Positions 4,698-62,103 of a DNA stretch of 64,000 nt are shown piece by piece. Below the pieces are notes generated by a model that saw nothing but the letters and a program-made list of their open reading frames with translations, was not told the origin of the DNA and searched no databases. A program made the position numbers and the translations under genes. Positions within the stretch are counted from its first letter, which is position 1, and each line of letters opens with the position of its first letter. Origin of the DNA: a virus. The stretch is taken from positions 62,001 to 126,000 of IMG/VR virus record IMGVR_UViG_3300021963_009993; one strand, given 5' to 3'.

Positions 4698-4919
4698 ATG
4701 ATTCAGCTAAATCCTCCTATTCCATTAGAGACACCGAAGGGAAGTGGTTTTGCTCACTTCTTGATTGATTATTCCCAAGAACATCATCTGGCATGGGTAG
4801 TTTTTATCAATGAAACTGGGGAGTGTTGGACATTCCAAAACCCAGAAATAAGAATGAGTCCTAACAGAACATTGAATCGTTATTCTGTTTCACCATTCAA
4901 AAATTTAGATGCCAAATAA
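4698..4919 (+). CDS. conserved small phage protein of unknown function
   Basis: 73 residues with no transmembrane segment. It opens with PPIPLETPKGSGFAHFLIDYSQEHHLAWVVFINETGECWTF, given here only in part: the pattern PIPLxTPKGxGxAHFLIDY and the strand-turn-strand WVVFIxETGECWTF resemble a small phage family seen in T4-like myophages, whose role is unknown to me. A good AAAAGGA Shine-Dalgarno precedes the ATG. The 3' end converges on, and overlaps by 15 bases, the minus-strand gene at 4905. Confidence 0.65.
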   Translation: MIQLNPPIPLETPKGSGFAHFLIDYSQEHHLAWVVFINETGECWTFQNPEIRMSPNRTLNRYSVSPFKNLDAK

Positions 4920-5144
4920 TTTGTCTATATTCCATTTCATACTTTTTCCAAATCCATCATGAAGTGAAAATACAACTTGTTTATTTGTAATGGTATTTTT
5001 TATGATTAATTCTTTGTCAGTTGTCTTCATTCCATACTCGAACTGTTTGATACCATTTTCTTTTAAATATTTTTCAATATTCTCTTCTAAATTTGACATA
5101 AGTACATTTTCTTGAAAGTCTAACCAATCAACAAATTTTTTCAT
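4905..5144 (-). CDS. small protein with capsid-targeting-like N-terminus
   Basis: 79 residues, function not recognised. The N-terminus MKKFVDWLDFQE has aromatic residues at 4 and 7, an aliphatic residue at 8 and a glutamate at 12, matching the pattern seen in at least six other proteins of this window and resembling the T4 internal-protein targeting sequence. The start overlaps the stop of the preceding membrane protein by 4 bases (ATGA) and has a GAGG Shine-Dalgarno, so it is the last gene of a three-gene minus operon (5697 to 4905). Confidence 0.65.
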   Translation of the reverse strand: MKKFVDWLDFQENVLMSNLEENIEKYLKENGIKQFEYGMKTTDKELIIKNTITNKQVVFSLHDGFGKSMKWNIDKLFGI

Positions 5145-5403: not shown

Positions 5404-5697
5404 TTAAACCTTTTCAAAAATATAAGTTGTTCCTTGATCGTTTATTGAAATCCATAATATTTCTTTATTGTTTTCATTCATAGATTTGCCAGCAGACATT
5501 TCAGAAATGCCAGCAAATTGATGTTTGAAATTTTCAGGAACAATTTTCAATGCGTATTTCAAATCCAACAGATCACTATTTTCCTTAAGGTCTGGTATGT
5601 TTTCTGTGTCGTAGGTTCCAACAAATTCATAACCACTTGTATTTTCTATACCTTGGGCTGTGTTTCTGAAGCTCATCCATTCATTAAATTTTTGCAT
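5404..5697 (-). CDS. hypothetical protein with capsid-targeting-like N-terminus
   Basis: 97 residues when started at the ATG at 5697, which has a GAGGTG Shine-Dalgarno; the longer frame up to 5811 would run into the divergent gene's leader and encodes an unlikely hydrophobic extension. The N-terminus MQKFNEWMSFRN follows the same aromatic-4/aromatic-7 pattern as neighbouring genes but lacks the glutamate. The remainder (VGTYDTENIPDLKE ... ILWISINDQGTTYIFEK) is not recognised. First gene of a three-gene minus-strand operon. Confidence 0.6.
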   Translation of the reverse strand: MQKFNEWMSFRNTAQGIENTSGYEFVGTYDTENIPDLKENSDLLDLKYALKIVPENFKHQFAGISEMSAGKSMNENNKEILWISINDQGTTYIFEKV

Positions 5698-6151: not shown

Positions 6152-6700
6152 ATGATCTCATTTTCACAGTTTTTGAAAGAATACGGTTTCACAGACATGG
6201 TTCAATTCATGTCGCAAGAAGATGTTTCTTTACCTGAAATATTTGATGAATTGAAATTATCCAAGAGTGATCTGCCTAAAGTCGTTCAGACTGGTGCTGA
6301 TTATGCAGCTGCTTTTGATAAGTTTGTTGGCATCAAAAAGACAATATTTCTTCTTGCACCAACTTTAAAAACTAAGATTAGTTTGTTGAATGATCTTTAT
6401 CTTCTGTCAAGACATCCTAAGAAAATAAAGAATTACAAAGCGGTTTTGGAAGATATTATTGAACTTAGCAAGTTATTGGCGATGAATCCATTGGCAGCAA
6501 CAAGCATTGCAGCTTCCGCAGCTATGATGATAGGTACAAAAAATCCAGAGGCATATGCTGTGGCAACAAAACTATTGAGTTCAGCTTATTTCTATGCTGA
6601 AACAATATTAAAAGCCTTGCAAAATAGCAAATCAGAAAAGATTGCCGAATTAGCAATGAAGGCAAAGATATTATTGCCAAAATCAGAAATCAAGCATTAA
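6152..6700 (+). CDS. hypothetical protein with capsid-targeting-like N-terminus (candidate internal head protein)
   Basis: 182 residues, helical and alanine/lysine-rich, not recognised. MISFSQFLKEYGF has F4, F7, L8 and E10, matching position for position the T4 IPIII-type capsid-targeting sequence, with an L-K-E that would fit gp21-type cleavage. The middle (AMNPLAATSIAASAAMMIG, about residues 111-130) is hydrophobic and might insert in a membrane. No Shine-Dalgarno is seen; the ATG follows TATATAAATTACA, which resembles a late-promoter box. It converges with the gene at 6697 (4-base overlap). Confidence 0.65.
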   Translation: MISFSQFLKEYGFTDMVQFMSQEDVSLPEIFDELKLSKSDLPKVVQTGADYAAAFDKFVGIKKTIFLLAPTLKTKISLLNDLYLLSRHPKKIKNYKAVLEDIIELSKLLAMNPLAATSIAASAAMMIGTKNPEAYAVATKLLSSAYFYAETILKALQNSKSEKIAELAMKAKILLPKSEIKH

Positions 6701-7302
6701 TTTTTAGGAAACATTTCTGGGATTTTTTGTTTAATCAAATTCTCGTTTTTTGTGTACCAGTCAATAAATTCCTTTTCCGCTCTTTCTGGGCCAGCTTCAC
6801 CTAATTTTGCATTTGGATCTTTTAATTGTTGAAATTCTTTTTCATGAGTTGCTTCATGAACTATTGTGCTGGCTATTTGAACTATAGTCCATGTCTTATC
6901 ACCAAGCTCTCTGACAAATCTTGGAACATTAACCTGAATGGTTACTGAAGGTATTAGTTCAGCTAGATTGATGTTGGGGAATTTGTCCTTGATTACAGCG
7001 TTTGGCAATGTGTCAATTGAGTGCTGGTCAAATTTAGCTTGATTGAAAATTAACTTGGCTTTCGGGCCAACTACTTTTCTGTTTTGTGAAGAAGAATATA
7101 AACCATATGCTACAGGACCACCTGACAGAGGGACGATAGTGTTGATGTCTCTAAGTAAATCCTTGCCAGTCATCTTGTCATAAAGTTGCACAAGTTTAAC
7201 TGCAAGTCCCACTTTACTGTATGCTGGTGTAACTTTGCTGAAATCAACTTCTTCTGTTCCAACTGTGTTTACTTCACTCAACCATTTTTTAAAAGTTTTC
7301 AT
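6697..7302 (-). CDS. putative zinc metallopeptidase with capsid-targeting-like N-terminus
   Basis: 201 residues from the ATG at 7302; the longer frame to 7569 overlaps the gene at 7358 and is rejected. MKTFKKWLSEV matches the T4 IPIII targeting peptide pattern (aromatic 4, aromatic 7, L8, E10). Around residue 150 lies IVHEATHEKEF, an HExxH zinc-peptidase motif, followed by glutamates (AGPERAEKEFIDWY) that could supply the third ligand. The middle has a glycine-rich PLSGGPVAYGLYSSS. No named family recognised. If packaged in the head it could act on host proteins on injection, or on phage proteins during assembly; both are inference. Confidence 0.65.
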   Translation of the reverse strand: MKTFKKWLSEVNTVGTEEVDFSKVTPAYSKVGLAVKLVQLYDKMTGKDLLRDINTIVPLSGGPVAYGLYSSSQNRKVVGPKAKLIFNQAKFDQHSIDTLPNAVIKDKFPNINLAELIPSVTIQVNVPRFVRELGDKTWTIVQIASTIVHEATHEKEFQQLKDPNAKLGEAGPERAEKEFIDWYTKNENLIKQKIPEMFPKN

Positions 7303-7357
7303 TTTGCAATTTCCAAAAGTTTGACATTTATATATATTGTTGAAAAAGGAGAATGTT

Positions 7358-7591
7358 ATGCTCTGGGACAAAATAGAAGCTGCAAAAACAATAATTTCAA
7401 ATTCTTCAATGAGTGAATATGAGCAAGAGATGCTTCTGACTATAGTTGCTGATTTCACGGAATTGGTTAAGTTACAAATGAAAACAGCCAATGAAGCAAA
7501 GATAACAGAAGGCATGAGTGCAAGTTTAAAATCTTGCATTTTTGAAGGTTCCGCTTTGATAGCAAGCAAGAATGTGTATACAACAGAATAA
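7358..7591 (+). CDS. small hypothetical protein
   Basis: 77 residues from the ATG at 7358, which has AAGGAG at the right spacing. The sequence is helical (LWDKIEAAKTIISNSSMSEYEQEMLLTIV shows heptad-like hydrophobics, shown only in part here) with no cysteine, membrane segment or known motif. It runs divergently from the putative metallopeptidase at 6697. No function can be offered. Confidence 0.55.
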   Translation: MLWDKIEAAKTIISNSSMSEYEQEMLLTIVADFTELVKLQMKTANEAKITEGMSASLKSCIFEGSALIASKNVYTTE

Positions 7592-7677: not shown

Positions 7678-8055
7678 ATGCCAGAATTACACAAGCATCT
7701 TGTTATCAATGCAACGGTCAAAAATCCAATCAAGGATGAGAAAATTTGTGAACAATGGTTTAGAACTCTAGTTGATATGATTGATATGAAGGTCTTGATT
7801 GAGCCAAAAGCCACCTATTGCAACACATTTGGAAATGAAGGTATTACAGGCACAGTTGTAATTGAAACATCTCATGCCAGCATTCATATTTGGTCTAGCG
7901 TCGAAGTCCCATACATCAGAATGGATGTGTATTCTTGCAAGGATTTTGAAGCAGAAAAAGTCATTGCTTTTGTCGATGAGACTATGGGAATAATTGATTG
8001 TGACCACATCTTGATTGACAGGAATGATACAAAACTCAAATTAATTAATGGCTAA
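7678..8055 (+). CDS. SpeD-like S-adenosylmethionine decarboxylase family protein
   Basis: 125 residues, the usual length of a bacterial class I AdoMet decarboxylase. GITGTVVIETSHASIHIW (residues about 56-73) aligns with the family's GVxGVVVISESHLxIHTW: the serine that becomes the pyruvoyl group and the following histidines are present, but the Glu before the Ser is Thr here. DVYSCKDF supplies the catalytic cysteine. Such enzymes self-cleave to form pyruvoyl and decarboxylate AdoMet for spermidine synthesis; some SpeD homologues act on arginine or ornithine instead, so the substrate is open. It overlaps the HNH gene by 8 bases. The upstream gap is AT-rich with AGAAGGA before the ATG. Confidence 0.8.
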   Translation: MPELHKHLVINATVKNPIKDEKICEQWFRTLVDMIDMKVLIEPKATYCNTFGNEGITGTVVIETSHASIHIWSSVEVPYIRMDVYSCKDFEAEKVIAFVDETMGIIDCDHILIDRNDTKLKLING

Positions 8056-8645: not shown

Positions 8646-9209
8646 ATGGAAGATGATTTGCTAATTGGTTATTACGAATCACAAGAAGGTTCAAGGCCGA
8701 TGAATTTGATAACTGAAAATGTGCAACTTTCTGAGAATTTGCAATATCATTTAGAAAATAATATATCATTATCTAACTCAGTATTTAGACTAGGTTCTGA
8801 AGCTTGGATGGATTTGGTTAATGAAATGAGAGATTTGTGGGAACAGGGATTGTTGCATGTCAATGAGAACGATGAATTCATTCTTATGACAGAAGCTGGC
8901 AGAACTGGTATTTATCAAGGCAAATCAGTTGCCTTGGATTCTCCCAAGAGGGCTAGTGGTGGCAACAAGAAGTTTACTGTTTATGTTAATAGTGGTCGCA
9001 AGAACAAAGAAGGCAGAGTGATAGCCAAGAAGATTGGTTTTGGTGATCCAAATCTGACTGTAAAGAACAAAGACCCAAAAAGAGCCAAGAGTTTTAGAGC
9101 AAGACACAAATGTCATTTAAAGAATGACAAGACAACTCCCGGTTACTGGGCTTGCAGAACAGGTCGTTATGCCAAGCAATTAGGACTTTCATCTTCTGCG
9201 AGTTGGTGA
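8646..9209 (+). CDS. conserved phage protein with basic C-terminal KSFRARHxC domain
   Basis: 187 residues from the ATG at 8646, which has AAGGGGAA before it; an upstream in-frame start would place the dyad element inside the gene. The N-terminal 90 residues are acidic and helical. From residue 115 the protein is very basic: KKFTVYVNSGRKNKEGRVIAK (in part), then KRAKSFRARHKCHLKNDKTTPGYWACRTGRY, a block I associate with a conserved domain in many T4-like phage proteins of unknown role. The histidine/cysteine pattern RHKCHL ... WAC may bind metal. It overlaps the next start by one base (TGATGA). Confidence 0.65.
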   Translation: MEDDLLIGYYESQEGSRPMNLITENVQLSENLQYHLENNISLSNSVFRLGSEAWMDLVNEMRDLWEQGLLHVNENDEFILMTEAGRTGIYQGKSVALDSPKRASGGNKKFTVYVNSGRKNKEGRVIAKKIGFGDPNLTVKNKDPKRAKSFRARHKCHLKNDKTTPGYWACRTGRYAKQLGLSSSASW

Positions 9210-9934
9210 TGAAAAGTTTTTATCAATATCTTTTAGAAGTATCTGCAACTGATACTGTTGGCTTTTTATGTGATAAATTTTTGAAAAACATAAGAAGAAC
9301 CTATGATGATGAGCAAAGGTATTTGCCTATGTTTGCTCTTGCAGATTACATGGAAGAAAACCTTTTAAATGAATATAAGGCAAACCAAATTAGAGAAATG
9401 GCAAGTAGCAAGGATCTTTATAATCTTAAAAATGCCTGTAATAAATATTTGCAAGATGGTTTTTTCACAACTAATACAGCATACGATCCAAACATTTCAT
9501 CTTATCGTCCACAACTTTTAGTTCTTTCAAACAATTATCCTTTGCATAGAGTAACGGATAACATCGATGAGCGTGGGATTGTGGTTTCAATCGCTTCTTT
9601 AACGAATATAAGACAAGCAATAATAAGTGAAGCAGTCAAAAGACAGATGGGTATCAATCAGTATATTAGAACCATTTATGACACAGATCAACCAATAAAT
9701 AATTTGGTTGATCTTAATAATACTGATTTGGAATTCTATTACAGGGATTTCTACAGACCAAGGACTTTGACAAACTTAGTCAACAAGGATGGTGAAATGG
9801 CTGCTGGTAGTAGTGAGATAAATGAACGAATTACAGATAGGTTTATGGAAGAGGAATTGCCAGATATTGTTGGCGAAGAAGTGGCTAAGATGAACTATCT
9901 TATACTTAAAGATTTGGAGTATTATAATGCTTGA
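9209..9934 (+). CDS. hypothetical protein with capsid-targeting-like N-terminus
   Basis: 241 residues from the ATG at 9209, which overlaps the previous stop (TGATGA); the longer upstream frame lies inside the previous gene. MKSFYQYLLEVSATD has F4, Y7, L8 and E10, the capsid-targeting pattern, with an L-L-E cleavage motif. The rest is mixed alpha/beta with repeated NxxxLYNL- and LTNIRQAII-like helices and no recognised domain. It is followed by a 45-residue membrane protein overlapping its end. Confidence 0.65.
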   Translation: MKSFYQYLLEVSATDTVGFLCDKFLKNIRRTYDDEQRYLPMFALADYMEENLLNEYKANQIREMASSKDLYNLKNACNKYLQDGFFTTNTAYDPNISSYRPQLLVLSNNYPLHRVTDNIDERGIVVSIASLTNIRQAIISEAVKRQMGINQYIRTIYDTDQPINNLVDLNNTDLEFYYRDFYRPRTLTNLVNKDGEMAAGSSEINERITDRFMEEELPDIVGEEVAKMNYLILKDLEYYNA

Positions 9935-11304: not shown

Positions 11305-11943
11305 TTAAATGTTTATTTCTTTGCCATTGAGCATAAGTTTTTGCTCAACTTTTAAATTAGTAATGAATTCTGGGACTCCAATATGATTGCAAATATTATG
11401 CTTTTTTGCGTCTTTTGCAGTCAGATAAACATCACTATGTTTTTTATCATGCATCATTTTCAGGAAATAATCATCACTTTTACCAATATGCAGAGCAGCT
11501 TCCTTGAATATCAAATCATTCAATCTATCTGTCTCACCAGCATCTGCCTTGATTTCTTCGACTTTTCCAAATGAAAAACTGCTTACTTCATGAATCATAA
11601 GTGTTGCATGTTCACTCATGAACCTAAGACCCGGACTACCAAACATGAATAACATGGCACCACAACTCATTGCTTTTCCATTGCAAATGGTTGCTACTGG
11701 CACAGGTGAAGACTTGATGATTGAAATGATTTCCAACAGGGAATAAACTTGACCACCGTATGATTCGATTACCAAAGGTATAAATTTTGGATTTGCGTTC
11801 AATGACTCGTTGAAATCTTCAATGAAGTTTTCTGTCATTTCTTCGTCGAAAGCTTTTGTTAATCTGATTGCTTTTGGAGAATCGATTTCAATGCTGTCTT
11901 TTTTACAACGAATCTTTGGGTCAAGTCTGGTGTAAATCTTCAC
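11305..11943 (-). CDS. ClpP-like serine protease (S14 family)
   Basis: 212 residues starting at GTG with GGAG ahead of it. The ClpP fold is clear: VIESYGGQV (58-66), catalytic S93 in KAMSCGAMLFMFG, H118 in ATLMIHEVSS, and D171 in the SDVYLTAKDAKKH segment, which has the family spacing to the C-terminal N-x-x-G. Phage ClpP-type proteases either mature the prohead or act as free Clp peptidases; here it stands far from the terminase/portal block and no capsid gene is in view, so the role is open. A short hairpin at 11953-11971 overlaps the Shine-Dalgarno. Confidence 0.88.
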   Translation of the reverse strand: MKIYTRLDPKIRCKKDSIEIDSPKAIRLTKAFDEEMTENFIEDFNESLNANPKFIPLVIESYGGQVYSLLEIISIIKSSPVPVATICNGKAMSCGAMLFMFGSPGLRFMSEHATLMIHEVSSFSFGKVEEIKADAGETDRLNDLIFKEAALHIGKSDDYFLKMMHDKKHSDVYLTAKDAKKHNICNHIGVPEFITNLKVEQKLMLNGKEINI

Positions 11944-54892: not shown

Positions 54893-54901
54893 ATATTTAT
54901 G
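54893..54901 (-). promoter_or_regulatory. late-promoter-like box CATAAATAT
   Basis: Minus-strand CATAAATAT lies 14 bases from the ATG at 54878 with GTAGGT between. Its first three bases complement the ATG start codon of the divergent plus gene at 54899. Second of three such boxes. Confidence 0.45.
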
Positions 54902-55120
54902 ATCTCATTCAAAGAATATATCAAACTTCAAGAAATTGCTGGTAATTTTGGTCTGGAACCACCGAAAGAATTCGATCCACAACCAAAAGATTCCATAAGT
55001 AACTTAGAAAAACCTCCAACATTTGAATCAGAAAAATCAAATTTGCAAAAAGTAAAAGAAAAAGAAGATATAGAAAAAAATCGCCGTAAAACTTTCGTTA
55101 AACGGCGATTTTTAAAATAA
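54899..55120 (+). CDS. small protein with capsid-targeting-like N-terminus
   Basis: 73 residues. MISFKEYIKLQEIAGNFGLE has F4, Y7, I8 and L-Q-E at 10-12, again the capsid-targeting pattern. The rest is Pro/Lys/Glu-rich and likely unstructured (EPPKEFDPQPKDSISNLEKP), ending in a very basic KNRRKTFVKRRFLK, which could bind DNA. It has no Shine-Dalgarno and its ATG lies inside the CATAAATAT box of the divergent gene. The terminator at 55076 covers its last codons. Confidence 0.6.
   Translation: MISFKEYIKLQEIAGNFGLEPPKEFDPQPKDSISNLEKPPTFESEKSNLQKVKEKEDIEKNRRKTFVKRRFLK
55076..55113. terminator. bidirectional rho-independent terminator
   Basis: AAAAATCGCCGT is complemented perfectly by ACGGCGATTTTT, with a 14-base loop that may pair partly (AAAAC/GTTA). 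A-run and T-run on either side make it work in both directions. It overlaps the end of the gene at 54899 and faces the end of the acidic-protein gene at 55130. Confidence 0.88.
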
Positions 55121-55129
55121 AAATTTCAA

Positions 55130-55486
55130 TCAATCATCGTCTTCTTCGTCTTCTTCGTCTTCTTCGTCTTCATCCTCTTCATCGTCCCAATCATCATCAT
55201 CCTCGTCTTCATCGTCCCAATCATCATCCTCGTCTTCGTCTTCGTCTTCATCCTCGTCTTCATCATCCCAATCATCTTCCTCATCGTCCCAATCGTCTTC
55301 GTCTTCGTCCTCATCGTCATCCCAACTATCCCAATCATCTTCATCGTCATCTTCATCATCTTCATAAGATGTAGATAATTTAGGTTCAATAATTGTACAA
55401 AAACCAGAATCATTTAACGAAGAGAAAAAGCAATCAATATTTTCTTCATTTAATTTTGGATTGATGTTTCTTAAAAACCAACGCAT
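55130..55486 (-). CDS. protein with extremely acidic Asp/Glu/Trp tail
   Basis: 118 residues. N-terminal 40 residues are ordinary (MRWFLRNINPKLNEENIDCF). From about residue 42 to the end it is nearly only D, E and W (units like DDDWDDEDEDDDDWDDEEDE), net charge near -65 by inspection. The DNA is a run of TCTTC, TCATC and TCGTC triplets. Its function is unknown; acidic polymers can mimic DNA or bind basic proteins. It starts directly at the stop of the metallopeptidase gene, so they are coupled. Confidence 0.6.
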   Translation of the reverse strand: MRWFLRNINPKLNEENIDCFFSSLNDSGFCTIIEPKLSTSYEDDEDDDEDDWDSWDDDEDEDEDDWDDEEDDWDDEDEDEDEDEDEDDDWDDEDEDDDDWDDEEDEDEEDEEDEEDDD

Positions 55487-57129
55487 TATTTAAACCCCCT
55501 GCAATTTGAAACATATGAAACACGACCGCATGATGTATGATAGCGTATATCACAATTATTTTCAAATTTTGGTTCAGGAATTGGTGTAGTTCCTGCACAG
55601 CTTCCATATGTGCAACATCCTGTATTATTTTTAGGCTTCCAACACTTGCCATACTCTGGATTACCTTTAATCTTACAGTTGTTTGTAAAACAATCACATT
55701 GGAATATATTTCTTACAAGATTGTTCTCCTGATCTTTCGACCACACATCACCCTCTTTATCACCAAATACATTCTTTCCAAAAATGTATTCCATGAAATA
55801 CTTGGCTGCATTTAAAGAATCATCGACACAACATGCCTCATTAACACCCGGAGCAAATCCCTGCATTTGGTACATTTCATCTACAGGTATACAAACATTC
55901 ATGTCCATTAAATTTTGAACACCCATAGATTCAACTGCGTCAGGAACGATGTGCTTAAGTTGTACCTTTAAGCTAGCTTTCTTGATTTGCAAATCATTAA
56001 AGTGTGTAATCTTTGTGACATTTTTCTCGAAATTGTTCACATTGCTCATGCTCATGGCACGAACAGCAAAGACATTTCTATTATTGAAAACTTTGGTCAA
56101 AACATCAGCATGAGACTCAGGTCTTGCTGCATCCACTTGCTGCCATGTCTTACAGAATGTTTCAAAGAAGTTAGATGCAGCTGGGGCTATTTTGCAAGCT
56201 TCAAGGAATGTATCTTTCAAATACTCTCTAGCCTTAACAATAGCTAATTTGTTGTTTCCAAACTTGTCAACCAAACCACAAAGAACATCATAGAAAATTC
56301 CTGTCATAACCCTTGAAAAAGAATGAGGTTCAGATGATAATTGATCATTCGGAGCATTGTGTGGCAATGTCTCAGGTTTGATGTAATTAAATGTGTTAAA
56401 AGCATTTCTCAAACCATGACTAAAACCAAGTTCAGCACCAAACTGTTCTGCCACTTCACTAATAATATTATTTTGTCTTAGATTACCGTTTGTTCTTTCC
56501 ATAAGATAATTCAAAACAATATCATAATGTAATGTTGCTAATATAGCTGTTATGTCACCAAAAGCTTCATGGAAAGCCCAAATTTCCATAGAAGCCATGC
56601 TGAAAAACTCTGGTCTAATTGCATCCAACAAAGCATGACCTAATTCATGAGATACAATATCAGCAGACAAACAGGTATAAACTGTTTCTTTACCCTTAGT
56701 GAAATAAAAGAACTTCAAAAATGACCTGTCATAATAGGCATTTGCCTGTTGACCAGCCAAAGGATTGACTTGAAGTGTGTCAACCATTGCCCACTTTGTT
56801 ATATTCAATTTAGGATTCAAGAAGTTAATTGTATTAGCCAATACACCATAAGCATTTGCAGCTTTGCCACCATTTGTGTTAAAATCCATTTCATTAGGAT
56901 TTAAATACATAACAGATATTTTTAATCTATCTGGTTTAACATCAGCTACACTTTCTGTTAGTGCTGGATATGCTGGATCATTTACATAAAATCTCATTTT
57001 GCCTCCAAATGGGTCTATTTTTTGAATAACAGGTGGTGTTGGAATCTTGTTGTTAATCTTAGGAGGTCTTCTCCATACTACATTAAATAAGTCCATTGCC
57101 TTATCATATAAATACTTGCAATTGAACAT
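55486..57129 (-). CDS. thermolysin-like (gluzincin) metallopeptidase with Cys-rich C-terminus
   Basis: 547 residues. Near residues 165-171 IVSHELGHALLD carries the HExxH, and about 25 residues later AFHEAFGDITAIL supplies the third ligand Glu in an HEAFGDI context, like the E-x-x-x-D of M4/M36 peptidases. The rest, including SHGLRNAFNTFNYIKPETLP, is helical. The last 75 residues contain about 15 cysteines (CDCFTNNCKIKGNPEYGKCW, NTGCCTYGSCAGT). No signal peptide is visible. A virion or secreted protease is possible. A CATAAATAT box and GGAGG precede the ATG. Confidence 0.8.
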   Translation of the reverse strand: MFNCKYLYDKAMDLFNVVWRRPPKINNKIPTPPVIQKIDPFGGKMRFYVNDPAYPALTESVADVKPDRLKISVMYLNPNEMDFNTNGGKAANAYGVLANTINFLNPKLNITKWAMVDTLQVNPLAGQQANAYYDRSFLKFFYFTKGKETVYTCLSADIVSHELGHALLDAIRPEFFSMASMEIWAFHEAFGDITAILATLHYDIVLNYLMERTNGNLRQNNIISEVAEQFGAELGFSHGLRNAFNTFNYIKPETLPHNAPNDQLSSEPHSFSRVMTGIFYDVLCGLVDKFGNNKLAIVKAREYLKDTFLEACKIAPAASNFFETFCKTWQQVDAARPESHADVLTKVFNNRNVFAVRAMSMSNVNNFEKNVTKITHFNDLQIKKASLKVQLKHIVPDAVESMGVQNLMDMNVCIPVDEMYQMQGFAPGVNEACCVDDSLNAAKYFMEYIFGKNVFGDKEGDVWSKDQENNLVRNIFQCDCFTNNCKIKGNPEYGKCWKPKNNTGCCTYGSCAGTTPIPEPKFENNCDIRYHTSCGRVSYVSNCRGFK

Positions 57130-61780: not shown

Positions 61781-62103
61781 ACACAAATGAAAAAAAACTA
61801 AATGAACTTAAGATCCAGTTGGAAAAGATATACAGGCAATTCCCTGAACAATTCGCTGTCTCTAATGCAAAATCACATCTTAAGAAATGCATATTAGAAA
61901 TAGAACAAACACAAGCAAAAAGAAATAAAAGAAAATTAAACGATATTCAAAATCAAAAAACTATGCAATTTGCGTCATATGAGAACGCAAAAGCTGCATT
62001 GGAAATCCTAGACCAAATGCTTGAAGACCAACAGAAACAACTAGACAAACAAAATCAAGTAAAACAAAATACAAATCCACAAGATGAACTTTTCATGGGT
62101 TAA
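61777..62103 (+). CDS. small coiled-coil protein
   Basis: 108 residues, nearly all helical and charged: LNELKIQLEKIYRQFPEQFA, AKRNKRKLNDIQNQKTMQFA, ALEILDQMLEDQQKQLDKQN. Probably a coiled coil. Its start overlaps the previous stop (ATGA). No specific function; a scaffold or chaperone role is possible because of its position before the portal. The end overlaps the minus gene at 62093 by 11 bases. Confidence 0.5.
   Translation: MNTNEKKLNELKIQLEKIYRQFPEQFAVSNAKSHLKKCILEIEQTQAKRNKRKLNDIQNQKTMQFASYENAKAALEILDQMLEDQQKQLDKQNQVKQNTNPQDELFMG

Follow-up and report, generated by a model that had tools for sequence, protein, structure and literature searches.

The locus

The window analysed here is a stretch of 64,000 nucleotides, corresponding to positions 62,001–126,000 of a 181-kb virus record (IMGVR_UViG_3300021963_009993, hereafter G000); coordinates refer to this window unless preceded by G000. 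On its minus strand, a gene designated P0001 encodes a protein of 201 residues whose N-terminus reads MKTFKKWLSEVNTVGTEEVD (table 1). Its translation confirms the description given by an earlier sequence-only reading, i.e. a ten-residue leader at residues 1–10 and a HEATH motif near residue 150, here placed at residues 149–153 (HEATHE, 149–154). The ATG at 7302 was preferred over a longer TTG-initiated frame (6697–7569), because the leader is conserved in the family: an aromatic-x-x-aromatic pattern was found near the N-terminus in 50 of 58 sequences.

Table 1. Features of the window around P0001 and selected leader-tagged genes.
Feature	Position	Strand	Remark
P0001 gene	6697–7302	−	leader-tagged zincin-like protein; stop codon 6697–6699
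Leader MKTFKKWLSE	7273–7302	−	predicted S77 cleavage after E10
HEATH (H149, E150, H153)	6844–6858	−	predicted zinc-binding and catalytic motif
Glu176	6775–6777	−	predicted third zinc ligand
TATAAATG	7325–7332	−	putative −10 box of a T4-type late promoter, some 22 bp 5' of the P0001 start; weak
182-aa protein	6152–6700	+	convergent neighbour of P0001; leader MISFSQFLKE
79-aa protein	4905–5144	−	leader MKKFVDWLDFQE
97-aa protein	5404–5697	−	leader MQKFNEWMSF, without [IL]xE site
241-aa protein	9209–9934	+	leader MKSFYQYLLE
73-aa protein	54899–55120	+	leader MISFKEYIKLQE

The possible late promoter upstream of P0001 was graded as weak, given the marginal enrichment of TATAAATA across the virus record (22 occurrences versus 14 expected); this sequence is also absent at those head genes that were examined. 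TATAAAT or ATAAATA was detected 5' of 13 of the 46 leader-tagged genes of the record, versus 18 of the 192 other genes (p = 0.002). Together, these counts give a weak hint of T4-type late expression. Close to P0001 lies a polyamine-synthesis gene encoding an S-adenosylmethionine decarboxylase-like protein (7678–8055, plus strand; PF02675, E = 3.5e-15).

A family found in phage contigs

Among named phage records, a tblastn search returned a single relative, in LR756511 (595 kb, 36.8% identity), and successive pattern scans of IMG/VR yielded 25, then 34, then 71 loci, which collapse to 57 distinct sequences, LR756511 included. These relatives are approximately 33–53% identical to P0001 over the aligned parts, and a viral scan with the single P0001 sequence retrieved none of them. 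Short exact peptide patterns, which distant relatives could escape, detected no cellular relative in 84,980 species genomes, and no family member was found in the plasmids searched. All members found sit in phage contigs, and no cultured relative came to light; the family is apparently restricted to phages.

No convincing match to this family was obtained with Pfam, PHROG or NCBIfam models, nor any match in a profile-based sequence search of the PDB. Concerning known metallopeptidases, MPTase-PolyVal (PF18818) matched none of 23 family members and nothing in G000, while SprT-like (PF10263) and Peptidase M78 (PF06114) were missing from G000 and from the Pfam scan of family members. Profile comparison (hhalign) with an ArdC-type MPTase gave a probability of 0.5%, and alignments with SprT, ArdC and vWA-linked HExxH proteins were confined to the active-site helix. 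Matches to Pox_VLTF3 in 9 of 23 relatives were discounted as a probable likeness to the FKEWL leader.

Some relatives are modular, with the leader internal or preceded by other domains. Three of them (L130, L135 and L146) combine the leader, a KGFSQKN mini-domain and the zincin-like part, whereas in L016 another domain precedes the leader and zincin-like part. The inserted mini-domain lies around PKGFSQKNYCKRK (PRGFSQKNYCARQ in L135); another leader-tagged protein of this record, of 55 residues (G000:49714–49881), bears a similar motif.

Active site and predicted fold

The HExxH motif occurs four times in the 54,251 residues of the record's called proteins, for 1.3 expected from shuffling; by itself, it is weak evidence of a metalloprotease and may arise by chance. 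Conservation is decisive: none of the 57 distinct sequences with data lacks H149, E150 or H153. Four glutamates follow the motif in P0001, at positions 154, 156, 169 and 176. Residue 154 was dropped as a candidate zinc ligand, since it varies within the family (E in 39 sequences, then D, Q, V and A), and residue 169 is E in 51 sequences and D in 6. Glu176 is kept in 56 of the 57 distinct sequences (K in the single exception) and is invariant across a 41-sequence alignment, so that it likely represents the third zinc ligand.

The P0001 model was built from 29 sequences (pLDDT 67) and displays a strand (116–124), a helix bearing HExxH (137–159) and a following helix (170–185) that carries Glu176. 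Conservation and predicted topology thus place a glutamate on the helix that follows the active-site helix; HExxH with a third glutamate on the next helix is the gluzincin arrangement. In the better-scoring model of a relative (L005, pLDDT 76), the elements surrounding the active site follow one another in the same order. The only good PDB match retrieved by Foldseek for the P0001 model was 3e11 (probability 0.85, E = 0.35, 14% identity), while no zincin was clearly matched by the L005 model, for which viral models of SprT-like and IrrE-like type came up at probabilities of 0.18 and 0.16 only. A zincin fold is thereby weakly supported, the 3e11 match coming from the poorer of the two models. 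The sequence-only reading, which had suggested a zinc protease and proposed structure prediction as a check, gains strong, albeit indirect, support from the conserved HExxH and the third-ligand candidate on the next helix, and weak support for the fold, for which one of two models gave one PDB match. From its ligands and topology, P0001 is best read as zincin-like.

The motif could also bind a metal without any protease function, for instance in a metal-dependent hydroxylase or in a binding protein that lacks activity. Consistent with this, the sole curated match touching the motif, to an aKG-HExxH peptide beta-hydroxylase over 21 residues only, falls far short of the cut-off (E = 0.014), and no known zincin family was matched. 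However, the general-base Glu150 is invariant and the third glutamate lies 23 residues past the motif on the next helix, as in gluzincins; we consider a non-proteolytic role clearly unlikely.

Two further HExxH proteins were observed in the record. The first (547 residues, 55486–57129, minus strand, without leader) contains HELGH and matches Peptidase_M36 at the cut-off, as well as M4 weakly, making it a candidate second, thermolysin-like metallopeptidase. The other (192 residues, G000:14132–14710, plus strand) contains HELAH and matches the zincin-type domain PF07737 below the cut-off (E = 0.0013).

Leader and prohead protease

In T4, genetic analysis of the ten-residue capsid-targeting sequence (CTS) attributes targeting to residues 4 and 7 and processing to residues 8 and 10, the protease gp21 cleaving after [LI]xE (PMC9026906). 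P0001 presents both sets of residues, with aromatics at the targeting positions (F4 and W7) and the cleavage register L8 and E10. Within the family, the full [IL]xE register is kept in just 14 of 58 members, and therefore cleavage would not be general under the T4 rule.

A protease of the gp21 family is encoded by the same phage. Indeed, an S77 prohead protease was identified at G000:129508–129924 (PF03420, E = 6e-30), in one cluster with a T4-type portal and a major capsid protein, and of the records of 16 relatives, 9 likewise yielded an S77 protease, 8 of them exceeding the curated cut-off. Besides this protease, the window contains a ClpP-like S14 protease (11305–11943, minus strand).

We then scanned the 238 called genes of the record (656 candidate starts) for the leader pattern M-x(1-4)-F-x-x-[WFY] at the start codon. 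It was found at 46 genes, versus 7 of 608 internal methionines (p of approximately 6e-8). Although [IL]xE was no requirement of this search, such a site lies within the eight residues after the leader in 21 of the 46 cases, versus a background of 7% (p of approximately 7e-13). Leaders in the full T4 register occur 10 times at N-termini versus 4 times elsewhere in the 54 kaa of the record's proteins. The same scan recovers IpII and IpIII in T4, and detected no full-register leader in a stretch of phiKZ. In two large relatives, 14–15% of genes carry the leader, a lower density than in this record.

The sequence-only reading had called MKTFKKWLSE a capsid-targeting leader. The match at four CTS positions, the S77 protease with T4-type head genes and the record-wide leaders with [IL]xE sites lend this assignment strong, albeit indirect, support. 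Alternatively, the leader could be another docking or localization peptide, with P0001 staying in the infected cell. The incomplete cleavage register of many leaders and family members fits this proposal, as does the use of other signals by P1 and phiKZ (PMC9024508, PMC9026906), but it accounts poorly for the agreement with four genetically defined T4 positions and for the presence, in one record, of both the cognate protease family and an excess of [IL]xE sites. We rate it the least probable of the alternatives considered here.

Leader-tagged genes across the record

Leader-tagged genes cluster at approximately 42.6–58.7 kb and 66.9–71.9 kb of the record, P0001 belonging to the second group. 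Their products include two ankyrin-repeat proteins of 729 residues (G000:2161–4350, plus strand) and 558 residues (G000:42656–44332, minus strand), a NUDIX protein and an ASCH-like protein (ASCH match below the cut-off). Both ankyrin-repeat proteins are candidates for head packaging, because IIE or ITE comes after their N-terminal leader MNFKEWF. In the region G000:42656–58729, leader-tagged genes are densely packed on both strands; the NUDIX and ASCH-like genes are among them, and most of the products match no known family. In the relatives, leader-tagged NUDIX, FMN-reductase-like, gene-product-88-like and weakly ART-like genes were found near the family members.

Proposed role of P0001

On this basis we infer a course of events for P0001, from its expression time, packaging and cleavage to its ejection, zinc binding, proteolysis and target. 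The protein would probably be made late in infection, and its leader would bring it to the prohead core as in T4 internal proteins. The phage's S77 protease would then trim the leader after LSE-10. The mature protein would remain in the head beside the DNA, to be ejected into the host, where, early in infection, it would most likely cleave one or more host proteins, such as defence or regulatory proteins. We assign a probability of about one half to this reading of P0001 as a leader-loaded zincin-like enzyme, trimmed after E10, ejected with the DNA and cleaving host proteins. It draws on features read from sequence: the leader, the conserved HExxH and third glutamate, the S77 protease with T4-type head genes and the many leader-tagged genes.

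P0001 could also be packaged or recruited through its leader and act during assembly or inside the head, on scaffold or on co-packaged multi-domain proteins. Polyvalent zincin-like domains have indeed been proposed to process the polypeptides travelling with them (PMC5512222), one jumbo-phage zincin has been proposed to serve virion maturation (PMC7824862), and in L016 the leader-zincin is fused behind another domain. However, head maturation is already served by the S77 protease, and the P0001 gene lies outside the head-gene cluster, with neighbours that vary between relatives. Such a role in the head appears unlikely, though less so than the other two alternatives.

Returning to an ejected protease, a broader proposal may be made, which we advance tentatively and at less than even odds: this phage and its large relatives would package a large and varied set of injected effectors, sorted by a T4-type leader that serves as a general tag on dozens of genes in each genome (zincin, ankyrin-repeat, NUDIX, ASCH-like and ART-like products), and the apparently phage-only zincin family would be an injected protease disabling host proteins as infection begins. 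If so, a stand-alone protease would join the short list of enzyme types that phage heads are believed to inject. Moreover, a ten-residue tag with an [IL]xE site would allow candidate injected effectors to be read from large phage genomes, and the head contents of uncultured jumbo phages would become predictable and testable.

Comparison with known systems

An injected metalloprotease had been considered an effector type unknown from phage heads in the sequence-only reading, a statement that proved too strong: zincin-like domains have been predicted for polyvalent proteins, which are injected (PMC5512222), and N4 vRNAP, which is ejected, contains an HExxH domain (PMC12633501). For jumbo-phage zincins, the cutting of host proteins or virion maturation has likewise been proposed (PMC7824862). 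What appears new is an uncatalogued, apparently phage-only, stand-alone zincin-like family with a T4-type CTS, together with the breadth of the leader-tagged gene set in this record; in the literature, which was incompletely covered, we found no description of either.

Acel_2062, the predicted zincin-like metalloprotease to which the P0001 model came closest in the PDB (3e11), has no significant sequence match to P0001 and was not recovered with the second model. Polyvalent MPTases (Pfam MPTase-PolyVal) share with P0001 an HExxH motif and a glutamate on the next helix, and for them and N4 vRNAP host entry with phage DNA has been proposed or shown. Unlike these zincins, P0001 is a single-domain protein with a T4-type CTS and no PF18818 match; it does not have the polyvalent multi-domain architecture, extra N-terminal modules being present in L016, L130, L135 and L146.

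Regarding packaging signals, CTS-bearing cargo is known from T4 (PMC3012670, PMC9026906), and P1 DarB carries an N-terminal packaging signal (PMC9024508). T4 Alt is an ADP-ribosyltransferase carried in the head and ejected, as is proposed for P0001, from which it differs in catalytic fold and motif; the weakly ART-like leader genes near P0001 relatives recall this enzyme. The closest parallel is with the T4 internal proteins IPI, IPII and IPIII. Unlike them, P0001, as a putatively packaged protein, has a zincin-like enzyme as its body, and its record holds far more leader-tagged genes than T4's few. Both nevertheless start with a ten-residue leader (MKTYQEFIAE in T4) in which residues 4 and 7 are aromatic, residue 8 is I or L and residue 10 is E, and both phages possess an S77/gp21-family protease and T4-type head genes.
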